Shown here in pieces: positions 2,436 through 21,815 of a DNA stretch of 23,310 nt. A program made the translations under genes and the position numbers. Position 1 is the stretch's first letter. The number at the start of each line of letters is the position of its first letter. This DNA comes from a virus, in IMG/VR virus record IMGVR_UViG_3300044991_000938, positions 1 to 23,310 of that record. The stretch is one strand, 5' to 3'. The notes under the pieces were generated by a model that did no database searches, was not told where the DNA came from, and saw only the letters and a program-made list of their open reading frames with translations.

Positions 2436-4832
2436 TTACGCGGCCATGTGACCGACTTCGACGCCCATTATGCCACTAATCTTCTCTTTCCACGACTTCA
2501 GCGTGGAATTCTGAGGGGCGTCGACTTTAGGTGGTGCCTTGCTGGTAATCATGTTGCAGTTCCACGCCAGTGAGTCGACGATGTCGTCATGGTCACCTGC
2601 CGGAAACCTCAAAAACTCGCGCTTGAGCGGTATCAGCCAGTCAGCCTCCTGAAACACCACACGCCCCTGCTGCATGCGCCCCTGGAGCGCCCTGGCCCTG
2701 ACCAGCTTGTCAGTCAGCGGCTTCAGCACCTCATACGGCGGAAACACCCCACGTTCTGCACACCTCTGCTTGAACACCGGCTCTATGGCGCGCCAAATCT
2801 GACCATCCTCAACCCCCAGCGCCACAGGTGTATCCGGGTAGAGCGTCCACTTCTGGTAAAAATTCAGCATCTCCTCGATGATCGTGAACGTATCGCCCTT
2901 GAACCTCACCACGTCCAGCACGTGCAGGAAGTTATTCTCGTCCTGCAGGATCGTCGAACCTACGGTGTAGTCATTCTGCTGCTTCTCCCCGATGGCGTAG
3001 TCCCACGCCTGATACAAGTGCCGCTTGCGTATCTGAGGCATGCTCGGCTGAGTCCTGAACCACTCAGTCTTGAAATACATGCCCTCGTCCGGCACGGGAT
3101 TCTGCTGGTAGAGAGCCGACCAGATGCGCGGGTGCATGTTGGCCCTGTAGTTCTCCAGCATCTTCGTCGAGTAGCGCTCTGGGTGCAGCGCCGCTCCTGC
3201 CAGCCTGAGCAGCTTGGCACCCTCTGGCACGTCCTCGCCCTGCGTAGTGGGGCGGAACAAGTCACCCTCCTGCGTGAGGTACTCGTCAAACTCAGCCAGC
3301 GCTGGGTACTTAATCACCACAAACTGATCACCACCAGCCACGTCGCGCATCTGCTTCTGCAGCCGCCCTGCCAGATCGTCGTCGTTCCACCACGTATTGT
3401 GACTTACCAACCCGTTGGCGATGAAGTTCTCAGTGCCCTCTACCTGAAGGTCGAAAACTTCTTCAACACCGCACTCCTCAACACTGACTATCGGGTCCAG
3501 AATGAAGTCTGAGGTACGCAGCAGCGGCAAGTGCAACGGACTCAGATCCAAGATGTCCGATTCCTGCATTACAGTTGTTGCAGAGCAGCCCCCTGACTTT
3601 TCCGGTCTCGTGGCAGTGGTCGACAGCAAGTCGCTCTTTCCAATGACCAGGATTTGCCTCCTGCGAGCTCTTTCCACAAATCGCACAAACACCGCCTTGA
3701 GCCTCGACCATGCGCTCGTAGTCCTCGACAGTAATCCCGTAGTTGTACTTGAGCTTGGCGCTTCGTCGCCCATCCTTGTCCAACGCACTCGGTGACCTGT
3801 GGCCGTCAGCCCACTTACGCTTTCCGTAGTGAGACTGACAGAGTCCTCGACAGACTGCTGGCTTGTCACACACATCTTCCGAGCACGTAACGCCTCGCCA
3901 CTTGCCCCACTGTCCTTTAGCGCCACGATTCTCTGTGCTGTAGTCAGACTTCTTGCTCTCATCCATTTCAGGTCACTCCCAGTATCAACCAAGAACGGGT
4001 GCCTCCCGTTCGACCTGACAATTTTACCTGATTTTGTAGTGATTCTCAAGATAGAATCACTACCACTGGCCTTGACGGCGCTTACAGCAGCTGTGGAAAG
4101 TGCTCCCTGCCAGTATGTAGCAACTCTATCTCCAGCCTTGACGCTTTCAAGACGCCGCTCGGTGCCGTCAGCCATCAGCACCGGCGTATCTCCAGTCATG
4201 CACTGGATAATCAGCACACCTCCACCAGGACTAAGCCGGGTGTACGCCGTAGACCAGTACCAATCCCACAGGCCGTCGCGCACGGTAGAGCTGTCCGACT
4301 CCTCCATGTTCTTGATCGGGTCATCAATAATCAGTACGTGCGCACCTTTTCCGGTGATACCACCACCCACACCCGCCGCTGTAAACCCTCCACCCATCGT
4401 GGTGTTCCACGCCTCAACCGACTGGCTGTCAGGATCGAGCTTGGTGTCAGAAAACATCGCCTGATACGCCTTGTCGCGCATCATTTCGCGCACTTTCCGG
4501 CTGAATTTCATCGGCAAGTCGGTGTTGTACCCGCAATTAATCACCTCATGACTCGGATGATGCCCGAGGTGCCATGCCGGAAACCTGATACTCGCCAACT
4601 CAGATTTTCCATGCCGTGGCGGAACGAGCAGCATCAGTCGCGGAGCCTTCTTGTCCGTAACATCCCTCGAAAACTGTTCCAAGCGACGACAAATGTCCTC
4701 GTGCACCCACCCGGCGTCATAACTCGGATGAAATTTTTTGGTAAAAAACAGCAAATTGCGGCGTGCGAGTACCCGCGCAGCTAATTCTTTGTTGAACGCT
4801 ACCTCTTTCGAGCTACTCCTGGGTGCCGTCAC
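2436..4832 (-). CDS. terL: Terminase large subunit containing an intein
   Basis: The motor ATPase and nuclease that pumps and cuts phage DNA. The precursor is 798 residues; removing the intein (residues 211-479) leaves about 529, a normal TerL size. ATPase: Walker A-like PPRHGKS at 71-77, Walker B HVLIIDD at 165-171, and motif III LIIQ/T interrupted by the intein after Q210. Nuclease (RNase H fold): AWDYA with D611, GVED with E675/D676, and DHDDIVD with D749-D753. The start is GTG at 4832, placed by GAGG six bases upstream; it overlaps the terS end by 20 bases. The frame is open across the whole intein, so both halves are translated as one chain and splicing is needed for a working motor. An HNH gene is nested out of frame within the intein. 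Confidence 0.95.
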   Translation of the reverse strand: MTAPRSSSKEVAFNKELAARVLARRNLLFFTKKFHPSYDAGWVHEDICRRLEQFSRDVTDKKAPRLMLLVPPRHGKSELASIRFPAWHLGHHPSHEVINCGYNTDLPMKFSRKVREMMRDKAYQAMFSDTKLDPDSQSVEAWNTTMGGGFTAAGVGGGITGKGAHVLIIDDPIKNMEESDSSTVRDGLWDWYWSTAYTRLSPGGGVLIIQCMTGDTPVLMADGTERRLESVKAGDRVATYWQGALSTAAVSAVKASGSDSILRITTKSGKIVRSNGRHPFLVDTGSDLKWMRARSLTTAQRIVALKDSGASGEALRARKMCVTSQQSVEDSVSLTTESVSGLTATGHRVRWTRMGDEAPSSSTTTGLLSRTTSAWSRLKAVFVRFVERARRRQILVIGKSDLLSTTATRPEKSGGCSATTVMQESDILDLSPLHLPLLRTSDFILDPIVSVEECGVEEVFDLQVEGTENFIANGLVSHNTWWNDDDLAGRLQKQMRDVAGGDQFVVIKYPALAEFDEYLTQEGDLFRPTTQGEDVPEGAKLLRLAGAALHPERYSTKMLENYRANMHPRIWSALYQQNPVPDEGMYFKTEWFRTQPSMPQIRKRHLYQAWDYAIGEKQQNDYTVGSTILQDENNFLHVLDVVRFKGDTFTIIEEMLNFYQKWTLYPDTPVALGVEDGQIWRAIEPVFKQRCAERGVFPPYEVLKPLTDKLVRARALQGRMQQGRVVFQEADWLIPLKREFLRFPAGDHDDIVDSLAWNCNMITSKAPPKVDAPQNSTLKSWKEKISGIMGVEVGHMAA
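3396..4202 (-). mobile_element. Intein in TerL motif III
   Basis: A protein-splicing element of 269 residues. Block A is CMTGDTPVLMADG with the nucleophile Cys at precursor residue 211. Block B is NGRHPFLVD with His278. Blocks F and G are EVFDLQVEGTENFIANG and VSHN, with penultimate His478 and terminal Asn479. The +1 extein residue is Thr480. All residues needed for class 1 splicing are present. Joining the flanks gives LIIQ-TWWNDDDLAGR, the uninterrupted conserved terminase motif, which fixes the boundaries exactly. There is no DOD (LAGLIDADG) endonuclease in frame. Instead residues of roughly 290-452 are a serine/arginine-rich stretch that is the alternate-frame reading of a nested HNH gene. 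Confidence 0.95.
3478..3966 (-). CDS. HNH (endonuclease VII-type) gene nested out of frame inside the terL intein
   Basis: A 162-residue HNH endonuclease of the recombination endonuclease VII type. The N-terminal Cys cluster is C28, C33, C39, C43 with SHYGKRK. The nuclease core is CAIC (C94, C97), DHCH at 116-119, GKVRGLLCNNCN with C129 and C132. Endonuclease VII-family proteins in phages commonly act as homing endonucleases. The frame differs from terL by two bases, and both frames stay open for 489 bases. The ATG at 3966 has GGGAG nine bases upstream, and a TGA in its own frame nine bases upstream, so it begins independently and is not an in-frame fusion. It stops before the C-terminal splicing blocks. 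Likely role: mobility of the intein (inference). Confidence 0.9.
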   Translation of the reverse strand: MDESKKSDYSTENRGAKGQWGKWRGVTCSEDVCDKPAVCRGLCQSHYGKRKWADGHRSPSALDKDGRRSAKLKYNYGITVEDYERMVEAQGGVCAICGKSSQEANPGHWKERLAVDHCHETGKVRGLLCNNCNAGIGHLGSESVALAAAAYLRLHSGPDSQC

Positions 4833-5307
4833 TTATAACCTCGAAGTCTTCCACCTCAATAATCTCAGTCTCTGCCAATCTGAGCAGCTCCTCGTCGCTC
4901 ATCGTCTCAAACTTGCTAAACAACCGCTTCGCTGAGACAGAAACATCGAGCTGCACCTTGGTGGGCTCGTAATAACCGCACATTTTCGCCACTTCTCGCC
5001 ACCCGGCGATCTGCGTCATGGGCTCAGACATCAATTTCGCGTGCTCAATCGCCTCAAGCATGCCATCCATGACCTTCTTCTTGCTCATGTCAGACACTCT
5101 TTCGGCCCTTTTGAATTCTTTCTGGACCGCAGCGATGATGTTTGGCTTACGAGCGTACTCATACCCGGCCACTTTCGCATATGCGTAGCCGGCTGCTTCT
5201 GCAGCCTCTGGTGGAGCCATGCCTTTTGCCCGTGCAGCGACAAACTTCTTCTGCTGGGGACTCAGCTCGCGTGTACCGTCGTTCGGGACGTAATTCCGCT
5301 TCGCCAT
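4813..5307 (-). CDS. terS: Terminase small subunit
   Basis: TerS recognises the packaging site and delivers DNA to TerL. The protein is 164 residues from the preferred ATG at 5307 (MAKRNYVPNDGTREL), chosen because GAGG sits six bases upstream; an in-frame ATG at 5337 lacks a convincing site. The N-terminal part, LSPQQKKFVAARAKGMAPPEAAEAAGY split around its loop, is the helix-turn-helix expected of Terminase_2-like small subunits. It is followed by KPNIIAAVQKEF and a helical middle, and an acidic C-terminal tail (EEL, EIIEVEDFE) that could contact TerL. Position directly upstream of terL with a 20-base overlap supports the call and suggests translational coupling. Family assignment is by motif reading only. 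Confidence 0.8.
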   Translation of the reverse strand: MAKRNYVPNDGTRELSPQQKKFVAARAKGMAPPEAAEAAGYAYAKVAGYEYARKPNIIAAVQKEFKRAERVSDMSKKKVMDGMLEAIEHAKLMSEPMTQIAGWREVAKMCGYYEPTKVQLDVSVSAKRLFSKFETMSDEELLRLAETEIIEVEDFEVISDGTQE

Positions 5308-5564
5308 TTCAGACCTCGTAATCAGTCCCCTCATCATACACCAAAAATTTTGAGAAAAAATTTCGGACTTCGATCTTGGAAACCAAGAACTTAAGTATCT
5401 CTGAGCTAGGAAACAAAAAACTTTGAAAACTTTGTCTTTGTGGAGCTACGACACCCCCTCCCCTCTTCGCATCCGACCCACCCCGGTTCGGATTCGAGTT
5501 CGGGATCTCGATCCATTTTGGATCAGCGCACGTACGGCGTACCCACGTACACAGGAGATTTACC
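5308..5564. promoter_or_regulatory. Divergent intergenic region between packaging and early genes
   Basis: About 257 bp with no convincing gene. Both transcription units must start here or nearby. Visible elements: a CTTGG-AAA-CCAAG hairpin at 5375-5387, a GATCC-ATTTT-GGATC hairpin at 5510-5524, a pyrimidine-rich tract around 5450-5485, and repeated ACGTAC at 5530-5550 just before the first plus-strand gene. The left third is AT-rich. I could not assign a clear sigma70 -35/-10 pair on either strand, so promoters here are inferred from the gene layout. Confidence 0.5.
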
Positions 5565-5765
5565 ATGGCCATTATTCGTCACCACGCACGTAATAACACC
5601 ACCACTGCCACCACGCTCAACATCGTTGAGCGTGCCACTGCAACCACGATCTCCAAGGTCCTGGAGCAAGCGTCCTTTGTTAAGGGCGTCTGGGACGTTA
5701 GGGACCAAACCGGTCAGGCGGCATACGACCGCGTGACCGCTTACCTGCTCGCGAAGAGCAAGTAA
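5565..5765 (+). CDS. Small orphan protein, MAIIRH paralogue 1
   Basis: A 66-residue protein of unknown function and the first gene of the plus-strand block. ATG at 5565 follows AGGAGATT (5553-5560). It begins MAIIRHHARN, followed by a Thr/Ala-rich linker, then IVERATATTISKVLE and a C-terminal GQAAYDRVTAYLLAKSK helix. The gene at 7581-7829 starts MAIIRHARN and has the same order of IIER, V-x-D and YD-x-V-x-x-Y-x-x-x-K elements, so the two are paralogues. No enzyme motif or membrane segment is visible. Being first in the block and followed by a strong hairpin array suggests a highly expressed, separately controlled transcript (inference). Confidence 0.8.
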   Translation: MAIIRHHARNNTTTATTLNIVERATATTISKVLEQASFVKGVWDVRDQTGQAAYDRVTAYLLAKSK

Positions 5766-5772
5766 GTAGTAG

Positions 5773-5865
5773 CTCAGCCCCGCAGGGGGCTGAGTACTGT
5801 GCACCTAGGTACACAGTACTCAGATCCTTGCCCCGCAAGGATGGTTCCCAGGTAACTGGGTTTTT
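5773..5865 (+). terminator. Array of four hairpins ending in a T-run
   Basis: Four successive hairpins follow the first plus-strand gene. They are CTCAGCCCC/GGGGCTGAG (5773-5794, perfect 9-bp stem, GCAG loop); AGTACTGTG/CACAGTACT (5793-5820) with an ACCTAGGT palindrome in its loop; ATCCTTG/CAAGGAT (5824-5842); and CCCAG-GTAA-CTGGG followed by TTTTT (5847-5865). The last has intrinsic-terminator form though a short stem. The first two share bases and could be alternative folds. Confidence 0.65.
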
Positions 5866-5881
5866 AGCACTAGGAGATTGT

Positions 5882-6031
5882 ATGAACACATTGAAAGTAG
5901 TTGCTGTAACAACGCTGGCTTTGGCGCACTTCGGTGCTGCCATGGCTTTCGGTATCGCTGGTGATACCACAGCTGCCTTGGTGCAGCTGGCTGGCGCTGG
6001 GTTTTGGGCCATTTATGGCATGGCCTCGTAG
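5882..6031 (+). CDS. Small membrane protein
   Basis: A 49-residue, strongly hydrophobic protein starting MNTLKVVAVTTLALAHFG and ending AGFWAIYGMAS, with two likely membrane-spanning helices separated by GIAGDTTAA. ATG at 5882 is preferred over an in-frame upstream ATG at 5828 because AGGAGATT (5872-5879) sits directly before it and the longer form would run back through the hairpin array. Unknown function; the composition would allow a role in membrane modification, but nothing shows it. Confidence 0.7.
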   Translation: MNTLKVVAVTTLALAHFGAAMAFGIAGDTTAALVQLAGAGFWAIYGMAS

Positions 6032-6032
6032 C

Positions 6033-6076
6033 AATGTGACGAAAAACGTCACATTAGGTGACGAAAAACGTCACAT
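6033..6076. promoter_or_regulatory. Tandem inverted repeats GTGACG-N5-CGTCAC, 22 bp apart
   Basis: Two copies of GTGACGAAAAACGTCACAT at 6036-6054 and 6058-6076, identical over 19 bases. Each is a palindrome with an A5 centre; in the first copy the arms extend to AATGTGACG/CGTCACATT. The 22-bp repeat is about two helical turns, which would place two dimeric repressors on the same face of the DNA. The alternative is a pair of RNA hairpins with A5 loops acting as processing or stability elements. Confidence 0.6.
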
Positions 6077-15187: not shown

Positions 15188-15670
15188 ATGGCTACACAGG
15201 AACGAATTAACGATCTGTTTTATTACGGGGATGGCGCTCTATACAGAAAGAAAGACGCGGCAAATCAACAAAAGGCAGGAGATCGGGCTGGAGCAGTTCA
15301 CCACACTGGCTACCGGAATATCCAAATAGATGGAGTTATGTATCTAGAACACCGTGTGATATACAAAATGCACTACGGAATAATGCCAGAGCGCATCGAC
15401 CACATTGATGGAAATAAAGAAAACAATCGCATCAATAATCTTAGGGAATGCACGGCAAGTCAGAACAGCCAAAATCGTGGCAGACAATCTAATAACACAT
15501 CCGGGGTAAAGGGTGTGTGTTGGCGCAAAAAATCGGGAAAATGGCACGCTCAGATCATGAGTAAAGGCGTGTTTATGCACCTTGGGTTTTACACCGACAT
15601 AGACGCAGCAGCAGAGGCCGTGCGTGCTGCGCGTGCGGAACACCACAAAGACTTTGCGAGGGGTATATGA
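15188..15670 (+). CDS. HNH homing endonuclease with AP2 domain
   Basis: A 160-residue DNA endonuclease of the HNH-AP2 type, usually free-standing homing enzymes in phages. The HNH part has H55-R56, IDHIDGNKENN at 70-80 and NNLRE at 83-87. The AP2 DNA-binding domain is at about 105-155 (SGVKGVCWRKKSGKWHAQI, then HLGFYTDIDAAAEA). It is complete. It begins right after the upstream stop and overlaps the next gene by four bases, so it has slotted into the operon without breaking neighbours. Confidence 0.92.
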   Translation: MATQERINDLFYYGDGALYRKKDAANQQKAGDRAGAVHHTGYRNIQIDGVMYLEHRVIYKMHYGIMPERIDHIDGNKENNRINNLRECTASQNSQNRGRQSNNTSGVKGVCWRKKSGKWHAQIMSKGVFMHLGFYTDIDAAAEAVRAARAEHHKDFARGI

Positions 15671-16321: not shown

Positions 16322-16412
16322 GTACAACCACGGACTTCGTACCGCCAACGAACTGATTGACATCTTACTCAATATTAAAGGTGTCTGCTTACACCACAGG
16401 GAGCGCGCATGA
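16233..16412 (+). CDS. Small helical protein overlapping the previous gene
   Basis: A 58-59-residue protein, METQKDWSEYHVSLQPLARQ, then RREYNHGLRTANELIDILLN. Two ATGs (16233, 16236) follow AAAAGGATTTG. The LQPLARQLFEQLN-x-R-x-Y pattern recurs in small accessory phage proteins. It ends with a four-base overlap into thyX, which supports it as a genuine operon member. Confidence 0.6.
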   Translation: MMETQKDWSEYHVSLQPLARQLFEQLNRREYNHGLRTANELIDILLNIKGVCLHHRERA

Positions 16413-17104
16413 AAACAGCAGAAATTGACGTAACATTGATTGACCACATGGGCTCCGATTTGAGTGTAGTTAACGCAGCTCGTGTTAGCTTTGCGAAAGA
16501 AAGCGAACTTGAGTGGAGCAACGAAATCCATGATTATTTGCTGAGTCACGCAGATACCAAGCTGATTGACTATCTTGCCACGCACAACCACTGGTCGCCA
16601 TTCGCTCACGCATTCGCAACCTTCAGAATCAAAGCACCGATCTTCGTCGCCCGACAGCTCGTCAAGCATCAAGTTGGTCTGGCATGGAATGAAGTTTCCC
16701 GCAGATATGTTGATGATGAGCCTGAGTTCTTCTTCCCTGAAACATGGCGCGGCAGGCCAGAGGGCTCTATCAAGCAGGGAAGTGCAGGTGTAATCACCAG
16801 CATCACATCTGATGAAAGCGTGGACGTTGACCCGACAGGGGTGATGGAGAATGCAGCGCGAGCAGCATTGAATGCGTACACCTGGGCACTTGAAGGAAGT
16901 ATTGCCCCAGAGCAAGCGCGCATGATTCTGCCGCAGAACATGATGACGGAATGGATTTGGTCAGGCAGTTTGATGGCCTTCGCCCGCGTGTGTAACCTGC
17001 GCCTTGATCCACACGCACAACAAGAAACAAGCGAAGTGGCAGCACAGATTGCTGTAGAAATGGCCGAATTGTTTCCTATTAGCTGGAAGGAGCTGACAAA
17101 ATGA
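16409..17104 (+). CDS. thyX: Flavin-dependent thymidylate synthase
   Basis: ThyX makes dTMP from dUMP using methylene-tetrahydrofolate, NADPH and FAD, feeding phage DNA synthesis. It is 231 residues, the usual length. HWSPFAH (61-66) is the conserved N-terminal His motif. The signature region is RQLVKHQVGLAWNEVSRRY (82-100): it keeps the H, NE-x-S-x-R-Y core, but Lys86 and Gln88 replace the Arg residues of RHRxxSxxExSxR, and it is one residue longer than that pattern. Variants of this kind occur in phage ThyX proteins. It overlaps the previous gene and the DUF3310 gene by four bases each. Confidence 0.93.
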   Translation: MKTAEIDVTLIDHMGSDLSVVNAARVSFAKESELEWSNEIHDYLLSHADTKLIDYLATHNHWSPFAHAFATFRIKAPIFVARQLVKHQVGLAWNEVSRRYVDDEPEFFFPETWRGRPEGSIKQGSAGVITSITSDESVDVDPTGVMENAARAALNAYTWALEGSIAPEQARMILPQNMMTEWIWSGSLMAFARVCNLRLDPHAQQETSEVAAQIAVEMAELFPISWKELTK

Positions 17105-18005: not shown

Positions 18006-18155
18006 ATGAAGTCAAAAGCTATGAAGCAAGAAGAAGCAAGCGTGCGCGAAGCAATGCGTGCAGTTCTTTCTGCTGAGCAACAATTGAAAATCCTTGCTCA
18101 GCGCCCTGGTAAATCCAAACGTGAAACAACTCGGCTACTCAAGGAGATCAAATAA
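18006..18155 (+). CDS. Small basic helical protein
   Basis: A 49-residue protein, MKSKAMKQEEASVREAMRAV to TTRLLKEIK; basic and helical. ATG 18006 has ACGGAG eight bases upstream; a longer in-frame reading from 17964 would start inside the hairpin. It shares one base with the start of the MoxR gene (TAATG), so likely translationally coupled to it. Confidence 0.6.
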   Translation: MKSKAMKQEEASVREAMRAVLSAEQQLKILAQRPGKSKRETTRLLKEIK

Positions 18156-19138
18156 TGCGCCCGACCCAAGCAGTAAAATGCATCAACGAAGCAATCAGCA
18201 ACAAACACAGCTACATGCTGTGGGGTGCCAGCGGCATCGGCAAGTCACAGATCGTACAACAGATTGCCAAGTCCAAAGGCATCGGCATGATCGACATGCG
18301 CTTGAGCACTTACGATCCGACAGACTTGAAAGGCCTGTTGTATTTCAAAGACGACAAAGCAGTCTGGCTGTCTCTCGGCGAGCTGCCGGATATCATGCGC
18401 GACGGTGAGGAGGGCATTCTCTTCCTGGACGAGATCAATGCAGCGCCTCCAGCCACTGCAGCAGCTGCTTACCGTCTCGTACTTGATCGTGAAATCGGCA
18501 ACTACAAGATGCCAGATGGCTGGAGCATCGTAGCCGCAGGTAACCGTGAGTCAGACAAAGGTGTGACGTACAAAATGCCGGCACCTCTTGCCAATCGCTT
18601 CATTCACGGCGAAGTTGAGACCAGCTTCGATGACTGGATTGACTGGGCGCTGCACGCAGGTATTGATGACAAAACTATCAGCTTCATTCGCTTCCGCCCC
18701 GGCCTGCTCCATGATTTCGATCCGGCACAACGCGCCTTCCCGACACCTCGTTCATGGGAGCGTGCATCAAAGTACAACAAAGTTTCTGATCATCAGACTC
18801 GGCAAGAGCTGTTCAACGGCTGTGTAGGTCCAGGCCCTGGTGTTGAGTACAGCGCATTCATCAAGATGGCAGATGACTTGATTGACCCTGACATGATCAT
18901 CATGAACCCGGAAGAAGCGCGAGTTCCGTCTGATCTCAACGCACTCTACGCTACGGTTGGTGCTCTTGCAGCTCGTGCAACGACCAAGAATTTTGAGGCG
19001 CTTACGACGTACGCCAAGCGCATCAAGAAAGAATTTCAAGTTCTTCTGATTCGTGACAGCGCCATTCGCAATAAAGACATCACTCGCACTCCAGAGTTCG
19101 CCAAGTGGGCTCTGGCTAATAGCTCCATTCTTATCTGA
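18155..19138 (+). CDS. MoxR-type AAA+ ATPase
   Basis: A 327-residue AAA+ chaperone-like ATPase. Walker A GASGIGKS (24-31), Walker B ILFLDEI (88-94), sensor 1 AAGN (127-130), arginine-finger region LANRF (145-149). MoxR proteins typically work with a von Willebrand A partner to remodel or activate a target complex; the vWA partner here is encoded at 20667-21815. Length is normal for the family. It leads the operon after one small gene. Confidence 0.9.
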   Translation: MRPTQAVKCINEAISNKHSYMLWGASGIGKSQIVQQIAKSKGIGMIDMRLSTYDPTDLKGLLYFKDDKAVWLSLGELPDIMRDGEEGILFLDEINAAPPATAAAAYRLVLDREIGNYKMPDGWSIVAAGNRESDKGVTYKMPAPLANRFIHGEVETSFDDWIDWALHAGIDDKTISFIRFRPGLLHDFDPAQRAFPTPRSWERASKYNKVSDHQTRQELFNGCVGPGPGVEYSAFIKMADDLIDPDMIIMNPEEARVPSDLNALYATVGALAARATTKNFEALTTYAKRIKKEFQVLLIRDSAIRNKDITRTPEFAKWALANSSILI

Positions 19139-19145
19139 GGTACTT

Positions 19146-19823
19146 ATGGCTATTCTCAAAATCACACCAACACTGCGTAATGAAATCACGCGAAAAGCAG
19201 CTGAGCCTTTTGAAACGGCAATCACTAACTTACTGACGATCACCAACCCAAAAGATGTTGATCTGCTTTATGCCACTGTCGTACCACCTGACTTAGAGCA
19301 AACATTGTGCTCACTGCCCAAAGAATGGTCTATTAATTTTGGAACAGAAATGCGCATGCGCGTAAAAAACGCAAATATGCATATCATGTCGCTGTATCTT
19401 AAATTCAAACGTCGACCTTGCATGTATAGCTGGACACATGGAGTTTCATATCCGCCAGTTAACAACTGGAAAGAGCCACGACCCATAGGTGTTGAAAGTC
19501 AGTACAACTCTACCTGGCCAAAAATTGAGTTAAGCGTTTTCAACGCTTTGGGATTGAGCGTGAACTATGCAGACAAATGCGCTGAGTTAGCCAAAGACCG
19601 AGACACACTCTTGGCTGGGATTAACAAAGTGCTCGACAGCGCACCTACGATCAACTCAGTAATAAAGATTTGGCCTGCGATTGAAACGTATCTGAGTGAC
19701 GAAAAAAAGACCAAGCTACACGAAGTCATTGAGCGAAAATCGACGAGCAAAATCAAAGAAGAGCTCAATCTAGATGAGCTGAACGTAGCTCATATAACCC
19801 AACGAATGGCAGGAGGTGTGTAA
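19146..19823 (+). CDS. Possible Nmad5-like protein
   Basis: A 225-residue protein, MAILKITPTLRNEITRKAAE onward. The C-terminal part, CAELAKDRDTLLAGINKVLD followed by SAPTINSVIKIWPAIETYL, resembles nucleotide modification-associated domain 5 proteins of phages (pattern recall, moderate to low). No catalytic motif is visible. ATG 19146 follows GAGGTACTT, seven bases after the MoxR stop. It shares one base with the next start (TAATG). If the assignment is wrong it is an orphan of the MoxR/vWA operon. Confidence 0.6.
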   Translation: MAILKITPTLRNEITRKAAEPFETAITNLLTITNPKDVDLLYATVVPPDLEQTLCSLPKEWSINFGTEMRMRVKNANMHIMSLYLKFKRRPCMYSWTHGVSYPPVNNWKEPRPIGVESQYNSTWPKIELSVFNALGLSVNYADKCAELAKDRDTLLAGINKVLDSAPTINSVIKIWPAIETYLSDEKKTKLHEVIERKSTSKIKEELNLDELNVAHITQRMAGGV

Positions 19824-20698
19824 TGAGTCTTGTACAACAAGCGATTCTCATGCGCTGCACAATCTCACAATGGGATGCTACCGTACGAGATAACGATGCG
19901 CTTAAATCGTTTCTCACGCAGGAGCAAATGGCAGCTGACGCCGGCACTCTCAATAAGCACCTGATCGCCAAGTCAGCTCTGAAAGGCATTTCAGACGCAG
20001 CCAAGAAAATCCGTGACTACCACCGCAAGCTTACAATGCCGTGGAACCTCGACGGCGTCGGCCTACTGATGAACGACAAAATCCTGGACTACATGACCGG
20101 CATGAGGCCTCTCAAAGAGGCGTTTGAGGAAACCGTCGATCAGTTCATCAACCACTACGAGATCTACACCAGTGACAGCAAGCTCAGGCTCGGGCATCGT
20201 TACAACGCACTTGAGTTTCCCAGTCTGAGCCAGCTCAAACTTAAGTTTGGCGTAGACATCAGCCCGCTGCCCATTCCCCAAAGCGGGCACATCCTGACTG
20301 ACCTGACCGACACAGGCATTGACGCAAGTGAAGTAGACAAGGCAGTCAAGGCAGCAGAGAACAAGGCGCTGATGCGTCTCTGGCAGCAGGTGTACGTCAG
20401 ACTCAAGCTGCTACACGAGCGCCTCTCGGACACAGAGAGTCGCTTCAAAGCCACAACAATCGAGAAGCTCGAAGAGTTCATCACGAAGCTCCAGGATTTC
20501 AACATCTACCAGAGCAGTGAACTCGAAGCTTTCGTGCAGTTCATCAGAATTCATATCACAAATCAGGAAGCTTCTGAAATACGTAAGTTCCCTGAAGTAC
20601 GCACAGCTCTACTCAACCACTTAGAGCAGGCGATCACTGCGTGCAAACCTTACATCGGAGACATTCATGGCATCCGCAGCATCGAAGAAAGTGATTGA
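19823..20698 (+). CDS. DUF3150-like helical protein
   Basis: A 291-residue, mostly helical protein with LNKHLIAKSALKGISDAAKK and RDYHRKLTMPW near residues 43-75, a region in which DUF3150 proteins also have basic helices. DUF3150 genes commonly sit between MoxR and vWA genes, which is the arrangement here; the assignment rests largely on that. It overlaps the vWA gene by 32 bases. It may be the adaptor or substrate of the MoxR/vWA pair (inference). Confidence 0.65.
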   Translation: MSLVQQAILMRCTISQWDATVRDNDALKSFLTQEQMAADAGTLNKHLIAKSALKGISDAAKKIRDYHRKLTMPWNLDGVGLLMNDKILDYMTGMRPLKEAFEETVDQFINHYEIYTSDSKLRLGHRYNALEFPSLSQLKLKFGVDISPLPIPQSGHILTDLTDTGIDASEVDKAVKAAENKALMRLWQQVYVRLKLLHERLSDTESRFKATTIEKLEEFITKLQDFNIYQSSELEAFVQFIRIHITNQEASEIRKFPEVRTALLNHLEQAITACKPYIGDIHGIRSIEESD

Positions 20699-21815
20699 TG
20701 TAGATACAAAAATTGCCAAGGCTGTCAGCGCACTCATCATCGACGAGCCGTTCTTCGGCTCTCTACTGGTACGGATGAAGCTCGAAGCTGTTGACGGGCT
20801 TGGTACGATGGCTACCGATGGCACAAAAATCTTGTATGACGTCGATTTTGTACGTCAACTGTCCGATGCATCACTCAAAGGCATTTATGTACATGAGTTG
20901 ATGCACTGCATTTTTGTACATCAAGCTCGACGTGGTGATCGCGACCCTCGAAAGTGGAACATTGCGTGCGATTTCGCAGTCAACCCAGTAGTACTTGAGG
21001 CCGGTTACACACTCACGCCTGATGCACTCGTCGATCCTCAATACAAAGACATGAGTGCAGAGCAGATTTATGATCTTCTGCCTGACGACTTTTGCGACGG
21101 TCTTGGTGATGGCTGGGATGTGGGCGGTGTACAGGACGCAGAATCAGAGTCAGGCGCTGATCAGCTAAGCCAGGACGAAGTCAACACCATCGTCCAGGAC
21201 TGGAAGAACAAAGTTGCTGAAGCCGCCAATGCGGCAAAGATGTCTGGTAAGTTGAGCGCTGGTCTTGAACGGCTGGTTCACAATATTCTTGACTCTAAGT
21301 TACCGTGGCAAGAGCTTTTGGCTAGGTTCATGCACGCAGTCGTGAAAAATGACTTCAACTGGGGCAAGCCTAACCGAACCATGATGAACAACCACCACAT
21401 CTACGTGCCTACACTACACAACGAAGCGTGCGGGTCAATTGTCATGGCAATTGACACGTCAGGTTCAATAGGACAACAAGAGCTAGACGAATTTGCAGCC
21501 GAACTCAACGGTGTGCTGGATCAAGTCAGACCCGAGCGAGTGACAGTTCTGTACTGCGATGCATCAATCAACCACGTTGATGAGTACAAACCAGATGACT
21601 ATCCAGTCATGTTACGTACACATGGTGGCGGTGGCACTGATTTCAGGCCTGTGTTTGAGCACACAGACGAGCACAACGAAGACGTGCAATGCTTAATTTA
21701 CCTGACAGACATGATGGGTAAGTTCCCTGATGCGGAACCTGACTACCCAGTTATGTGGGTGAGTAACAGCAAGATTCAAGAAGCTCCATTTGGCCAAGTG
21801 GTGAGTTTGAAATGA
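20667..21815 (+). CDS. vWA-like metallopeptidase (DUF2201 type)
   Basis: A 382-residue two-domain protein. The N-terminal zincin-like domain has HELMH at 76-80 (HExxH) followed by CIFVHQARRGDRDPRKWNIA, with D102 as a possible third ligand. The C-terminal von Willebrand A domain has a complete MIDAS: DTSGS (263-267), GGGTDF (321-326, Thr324) and TDMMG (347-351, Asp348). This is the DUF2201 putative metallopeptidase architecture. It is the expected partner of the MoxR ATPase upstream. Whether it cleaves peptides is not established for the family. ATG 20667 follows GGAGACATTC. Confidence 0.9.
   Translation: MASAASKKVIDVDTKIAKAVSALIIDEPFFGSLLVRMKLEAVDGLGTMATDGTKILYDVDFVRQLSDASLKGIYVHELMHCIFVHQARRGDRDPRKWNIACDFAVNPVVLEAGYTLTPDALVDPQYKDMSAEQIYDLLPDDFCDGLGDGWDVGGVQDAESESGADQLSQDEVNTIVQDWKNKVAEAANAAKMSGKLSAGLERLVHNILDSKLPWQELLARFMHAVVKNDFNWGKPNRTMMNNHHIYVPTLHNEACGSIVMAIDTSGSIGQQELDEFAAELNGVLDQVRPERVTVLYCDASINHVDEYKPDDYPVMLRTHGGGGTDFRPVFEHTDEHNEDVQCLIYLTDMMGKFPDAEPDYPVMWVSNSKIQEAPFGQVVSLK

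Follow-up and report, generated by a model that had tools for sequence, protein, structure and literature searches.

Inteins are sorted either as full-length elements with an in-frame endonuclease or as mini-inteins with none. In canonical large inteins carrying an in-frame LAGLIDADG or HNH endonuclease, such as PI-SceI, the two Hint halves flank the endonuclease, the nuclease lies within the polypeptide that is spliced out and the element is mobile by homing. Dassa et al. reportedly described in 2009 split inteins in which a homing endonuclease gene stands free between the two halves; the nuclease there is a gene of its own, but the host gene is in two parts and the halves splice in trans. 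Nucleases hidden in a second frame are known from phage DNA methylases, where the ShiLan domain and the Pacc40 insertion contain an out-of-frame HNH (Arsenault, Gosselin, Gogarten 2025, PMC11855218). The ShiLan insertion has no stop in the host frame, and its spread resembles that of a homing element; the insertion lacks a splicing domain, is not an intein and remains as a loop in the host protein. For overlapping frames, PMC11855218 cites a preprint on actinobacteriophage inteins of 'non-canonical architecture' (Gosselin et al. 2025, doi 10.1101/2025.01.02.630785).

The closest described relatives of the element reported here are the TerL6-f inteins of cluster B3/B4 mycobacteriophages, represented by Chandler gp6 and named for their insertion site at the TerL C-motif (PMC5050341). 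They are alike in kind of site and in intein family, and Chandler gp6 also in a hidden HNH. Chandler gp6 was rapidly spliced in a reporter (Kelley et al. 2016, PMC5050341); the passages of that study consulted here credit the LAGLIDADG-bearing TerL1-b and TerL1-c inteins alone with an identifiable homing endonuclease and do not mention a hidden HNH. Our literature search found no paper on a hidden nuclease in a splicing-competent intein. The Gosselin preprint may already include TerL inteins with a hidden HNH, and so may report part of what follows. An out-of-frame HNH in an insertion kept open in the host frame is thus known from ShiLan; its presence inside a full Hint intein appears to be new, with the reservation that prior description is not excluded.

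The window, meaning the whole stretch of DNA analysed, comprises the 23,310 bases of IMG/VR record IMGVR_UViG_3300044991_000938. Its terL gene starts with a GTG at 4832 and ends with a stop at 2436, and a single stop-free frame of 798 aa runs through the intein (Table 1); the host gene is therefore continuous through the nuclease gene, unlike that of split inteins, and the insertion encodes a full Hint domain, unlike that of ShiLan. An initial annotation, made from the letters alone, had described one continuous terL frame with complete splicing blocks, Cys1, the block B His, HN and a +1 Thr. We found all of these, and both the Pfam and the NCBIfam intein models match, with Intein_splicing (E 2.9e-15) in the same frame as Terminase_6N. 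Cys1 is located at 4202, block B reads NGRHPF, the intein ends in ...GLVSHN at 3396 and the +1 Thr occupies 3393-3395. The residues of a class 1 intein (C1, H68, H268-N269, +1 Thr) are all present; 58 intein relatives all share C1, H68 and N269, while H268 is almost invariant. Subtracting the 269-aa intein gives a spliced TerL of 529 aa by calculation from the sequence, in agreement with the length of about 529 residues that had been predicted.

Table 1. Coordinates of the terL intein, its nested nuclease gene and the associated loci
Feature	Coordinates or loci	Strand	Support
terL, large terminase gene	2436..4832	-	Terminase_6N 5.2e-12; phrog_38 5.5e-109
Intein, 269 aa, Cys1...HN, at TerL C-motif site GVLIIQ/.../TWW	3396..4202	-	Pfam Intein_splicing; NCBIfam intein_Nterm and intein_Cterm
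N-terminal Hint half, residues 1-97, blocks A and B	3912..4202	-	AlphaFold2 pLDDT mostly >90; PDB DnaB mini-intein matches
C-terminal Hint half, residues 228-269, blocks F and G	3396..3521	-	AlphaFold2; DnaB mini-intein fold match; NCBIfam
Intein linker, residues 98-227, encoding the HNH domain in the other frame	3522..3911	-	pLDDT mostly <50; middle-segment omega of the intein frame 1.18
HNH homing-type endonuclease gene, 162 aa, Endonuclease VII family	3478..3966	-	Pfam Endonuclease_7; offset 2 from terL frame
GGGAG, Shine-Dalgarno-like, 9 nt upstream of HNH ATG	3976..3980	-	Sequence; family-wide test
TGA in HNH frame just upstream of ATG, closing that frame toward the Hint domain	3973..3975	-	Sequence
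5' doubly coding overlap, HNH codons 1-18 / Hint-N residues 80-97	3913..3966	-	omega HNH 0.27, intein 0.16
3' overlap, HNH tail / Hint-C start, Hint frame constrained	3478..3521	-	Last 10 codons: omega HNH 0.94, intein 0.34
Loci of the second, unrelated nuclease class	L154; L412, L413, L415; L420-L496		

An AlphaFold2 model of the intein, built with 58 aligned sequences, gave high confidence for residues 1-97 and 228-269 and mostly pLDDT <50 for residues 98-227. Compared with the PDB, the model matched DnaB mini-inteins, with TM up to 0.88 on the target. Read in the TerL frame, the intein is thereby predicted to fold into a Hint domain whose halves enclose a disordered linker without a folded domain. 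A group I or group II intron with an endonuclease ORF was also considered and was rejected, since an Rfam search of the window returned no RNA family match.

The second frame of the linker region, on the same strand, contains the complete 162-residue endonuclease VII-type HNH that the initial annotation had proposed, running from an ATG at 3966 to a stop at 3478 at offset 2 relative to the intein frame and matching Endonuclease_7 (PF02945) with E 2.7e-23. The GGGAG, the ATG and the upstream in-frame TGA that it had assigned to this ORF are likewise in place. In the alignment of relatives C94, C97, D116, H117, C129, C132 and N133 are invariant and H119 nearly so; the zinc cysteines and the catalytic set D-H...H...N are therefore invariant or nearly so. 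The HNH was modelled confidently by AlphaFold2 (mean pLDDT 85.8). Its nearest solved relative by sequence in the PDB is T4 endonuclease VII (E 2.9e-8), which also tops the fold search, but weakly. The TerL intein thus fails the definition of a canonical intein with an in-frame endonuclease: its HNH lies at offset 2 and would be a separate product rather than part of the spliced-out polypeptide, and its linker has no folded domain.

To place this layout in its family, we scanned viral and bacterial contigs with the N-terminal half of the intein and with the HNH, and counted distinct inteins having both halves. All census figures refer to the matches listed, taken as the best 80 loci per scan, and rarer variants may have been missed. 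The scans detected at least 209 distinct related TerL inteins, and among the matches listed 204 of the 209 have their HNH at offset 2, which answers the proposal that terL homologues be searched for in-frame or out-of-frame HNH genes. Both frames are intact in 201 distinct inteins with an offset-2 HNH; the minority without the standard layout is deleted, frameshifted or unrelated, and the sole sequence with the HNH only in another register is frameshifted between its halves (all among the matches listed). In the first 145 intact inteins among these matches, the HNH starts at intein nucleotide 236 or 239 in 142 cases and stops 55-100 nt before the intein end. The intein host proteins were terminases in every case tested, with exteins down to ~25% identity to the window TerL. 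The two-frame layout is widespread and not a one-off.

The same HNH is present within terL of Gordonia and Mycobacterium phages, at offset 2 in 6/6 records examined. These records are annotated only as terminase or intein, with one stating 'homing endonuclease in intein'. The Chandler intein (254 aa) has the same hidden out-of-frame HNH, with a GTG start at nt 239.

Among the matches listed, the HNH has been lost in three inteins and only part of it is kept in two. Both ends of the HNH gene are still visible in L341, fused in the hidden frame, and L404 retains a C-terminal part. The deletion derivatives, mini-inteins or inteins with a partial HNH, are L288:1775-2206, L341:3001-3453, L369:3001-3399, L404:2738-3229, L405:3001-3507 and L133:3501-4103, some of which keep HNH remnants readable in the hidden frame. 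Four further inteins (L037, L049, L196, L235) have a frameshift or stop in one frame, reflecting real decay or sequence error.

We compared selection on the two frames by simple pairwise counting in 26 disjoint pairs, with each change counted by its effect in both frames, a comparison that the initial annotation had suggested. Relatives differ mainly at the third codon positions of the HNH, and at 20-30% nucleotide divergence identity was 0.74 for the HNH vs 0.50 for the intein frame. The HNH omega was 0.12 (bootstrap 0.10-0.15), vs 0.71 (0.57-0.91) overall for the intein frame; in the middle segment the values were 0.10 and 1.18. Judged by these counts, purifying selection on the HNH frame is strong; its absence would have refuted the proposed layout. 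The segment values further indicate that the intein frame of the middle linker is merely kept stop-free and that both frames truly code only over the ~18 codons at the 5' end and the ~10-15 at the 3' end where the HNH enters the Hint halves (Table 1). This supports the earlier suggestion that the linker is just the alternate-frame reading of the nuclease gene. It also qualifies the statement that the same 489 bases must stay open in two frames: both are open, but they are not equally constrained.

The distribution of the element is patchy. The terL of L005 has an empty C-motif site; its C-extein is 98% identical to that of the window and its N-extein 91-93% in two pieces. Empty C-motif sites were also observed in L007-L013. 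The few mismatches between window and L005 near the C-motif site cluster within ~20 nt of the insertion point, a weak signal that fits co-conversion but is suggestive only. TerLs of Gordonia phages that are 99% identical hold HNHs only 46-48% identical, and some elements that are ~80% identical sit in TerLs ~35% identical. Spearman correlations of intein, HNH and extein identities were 0.62, 0.52 and 0.69; alone they do not separate vertical from horizontal descent, and the argument for horizontal descent rests on the discordant extein and HNH pairs instead. As far as sequence comparison can tell, the empty site and this discordance are the pattern expected of a homing element; cutting and homing themselves are inferred. 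At its Walker A motif (GK/.../S), the L005 TerL (26-2620) has an intein of another kind, with LAGLIDADG in frame.

We consider it very probable that the locus holds a mobile intein and that its homing nuclease is encoded separately, by a gene nested in the other frame of the linker. According to this model, terL mRNA would be translated through the intein, and the Hint halves would fold around the long unstructured linker and splice to yield the 529-aa TerL; splicing of the window intein itself is inferred. The same mRNA, or an internal transcript, would be read from the internal ATG or GTG, two bases off register, producing a free Endonuclease VII-type HNH, as the initial annotation had proposed. 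The free HNH may then cut the C-motif site of intein-free terL alleles that co-infecting phages carry, and through recombination the intein would be copied whole, together with the HNH, into the cut.

Other readings of the locus were weighed against the same data. Sequencing or assembly indels could in principle have shifted an ordinary in-frame endonuclease out of frame, and the initial annotation had named indels at both HNH borders, restoring one frame, as a finding that would refute it. No such indels were found; as more than 200 distinct sequences, from independent contigs and from isolated phages, share the register, we reject an artefact, which retains next to no plausibility. A dead relic, with its two open frames a by-product of base composition, draws some support from the window gene, in which shuffling the codons of the HNH leaves the other frame open ~27% of the time, so that openness of this single copy is not significant. 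The rejection of a chance open frame rests on the family and on free-standing controls, not on the window copy alone. Among the matches listed, the intein frame is stop-free in 38/38 distinct nested HNHs, whereas the same frame is open in 0/33 free-standing HNH relatives, where it contains a mean of 4.05 stops per 100 codons (9.18 in their third frame). These counts, the selection on the HNH, its conserved catalytic and zinc residues and the census refute the relic reading, to which we give hardly any credence.

Two alternatives accept a functional nuclease. One is that the HNH is made as a Hint-N-HNH fusion through a -1 ribosome slip from the terL frame; the HNH frame is indeed -1 relative to terL in every intact case among the matches listed, so that such a slip would reach it. 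However, we noted no slippery heptamer at the window junction on inspection by eye, and stops in the HNH frame lie close upstream of its start, within 15 nt in 69/142 inteins and within 60 nt in 117/142 among the matches listed (the window TGA is 9 nt upstream). The start codon is also conserved beyond what the intein frame requires: in 142/142 inteins among the matches listed it reads (A/G)TGG, overlapping a conserved intein Trp codon, and although the preceding intein residue would also permit T or C in 32/142, neither ever occurs. A GGAG-like motif is usual upstream of the HNH, albeit weak in several actinophages, and the mean Shine-Dalgarno match of 4.28 nt, vs 3.73 under intein-synonymous recoding, is a modest excess. 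The conserved start codon, the GGAG-like motif and the upstream stops favour internal initiation of a free nuclease over a frameshifted fusion, which we regard as very unlikely; this is an inference, as no experiment shows HNH translation. A scan for sigma-70-like promoters upstream of the HNH detected two weak sites vs 0.8 expected and cannot be used as evidence. The other alternative is that the HNH is kept not for homing but because it benefits the phage, for instance as an aid to terminase during DNA packaging. HNH proteins adjoining terminase genes help packaging in some phages (PMC11855218), and HNH_3 relatives of an unrelated second class, described below, stand free beside terS or terL. 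Against this, the close relatives L005 and L007-L013 have empty sites, near-identical TerLs hold very different HNHs and mini-inteins have deleted the HNH; a packaging role is therefore unlikely.

The nested layout is not restricted to the Endonuclease VII-type HNH. In L154, another terL site, located in the nuclease domain (DH/C...HN/C), is occupied by a further intein, which lacks an Endonuclease VII-type HNH. This intein (5124-6041) hides in its linker an HNH_3 ORF (5402-5983) that starts with an ATG at 5402, at offset 2, and gives no meaningful alignment with the window HNH. The same HNH_3 arrangement, annotated as terminase, is present in Tetrasphaera phage TJE1, Acinetobacter phage Highwayman and Rhodobacteraceae phage LS06-2018-MD07. 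Among the matches listed, 56/69 distinct HNH_3 relatives from viral contigs are nested, all in the same register, and the remaining 13/69 all have stops in that frame. We counted zero host-frame stops in 59 nested HNH_3 genes, and pairwise omega was 0.17 for HNH_3 vs 1.09 for the host frame (8 pairs). Both classes probably share a register because that frame of the HNH gene has the fewest stops, as we infer. Free-standing relatives of the second class lie beside terS or terL at L414:1956-2597 and L416:1950-2567, in Acinetobacter phage BP10 and Exiguobacterium phage EauM-23, and free-standing HNH_3 genes so placed are a possible source of the nested copies.

Recurrence of the layout in more than 200 distinct inserts, and with an unrelated nuclease, suggests a stable arrangement by which a mobile element carries the tool of its own spread. 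We lean, with reserve, towards a broader reading: that out-of-frame placement of a homing nuclease is a design general to phage terminase inteins, which came together at least twice with unrelated nucleases (Endonuclease VII HNH at the C-motif, HNH_3 at the nuclease domain), always in the same relative frame and with nuclease expression uncoupled from splicing, and that many long-linker inteins seemingly free of an endonuclease are perhaps active homing elements. The TerL family resembles a mini-intein yet carries a selected nuclease gene, and intein surveys restricted to the host frame would miss the homing engine and misjudge mobility. As expression of the nuclease is separate from splicing in this model, the timing and regulation of homing become testable questions in phage crosses. 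The family also amounts to a large natural collection of nested genes, with selection on one frame, the other kept open and double coding at the edges, which is useful for the study of overlapping genes.

Elsewhere in the window, on the plus strand, we observed a free-standing HNH_3 endonuclease gene with an AP2-like domain (15188-15670), typical of stand-alone homing-type genes, and a ThyX-type thymidylate synthase gene (16409-17104; PF02511, E 1.3e-46). Further downstream, also on the plus strand, 18155-21815 contains an AAA ATPase (AAA_5) gene, two ORFs and then a DUF2201 metallopeptidase/VWA-like gene, an arrangement that resembles MoxR-VWA pairs.
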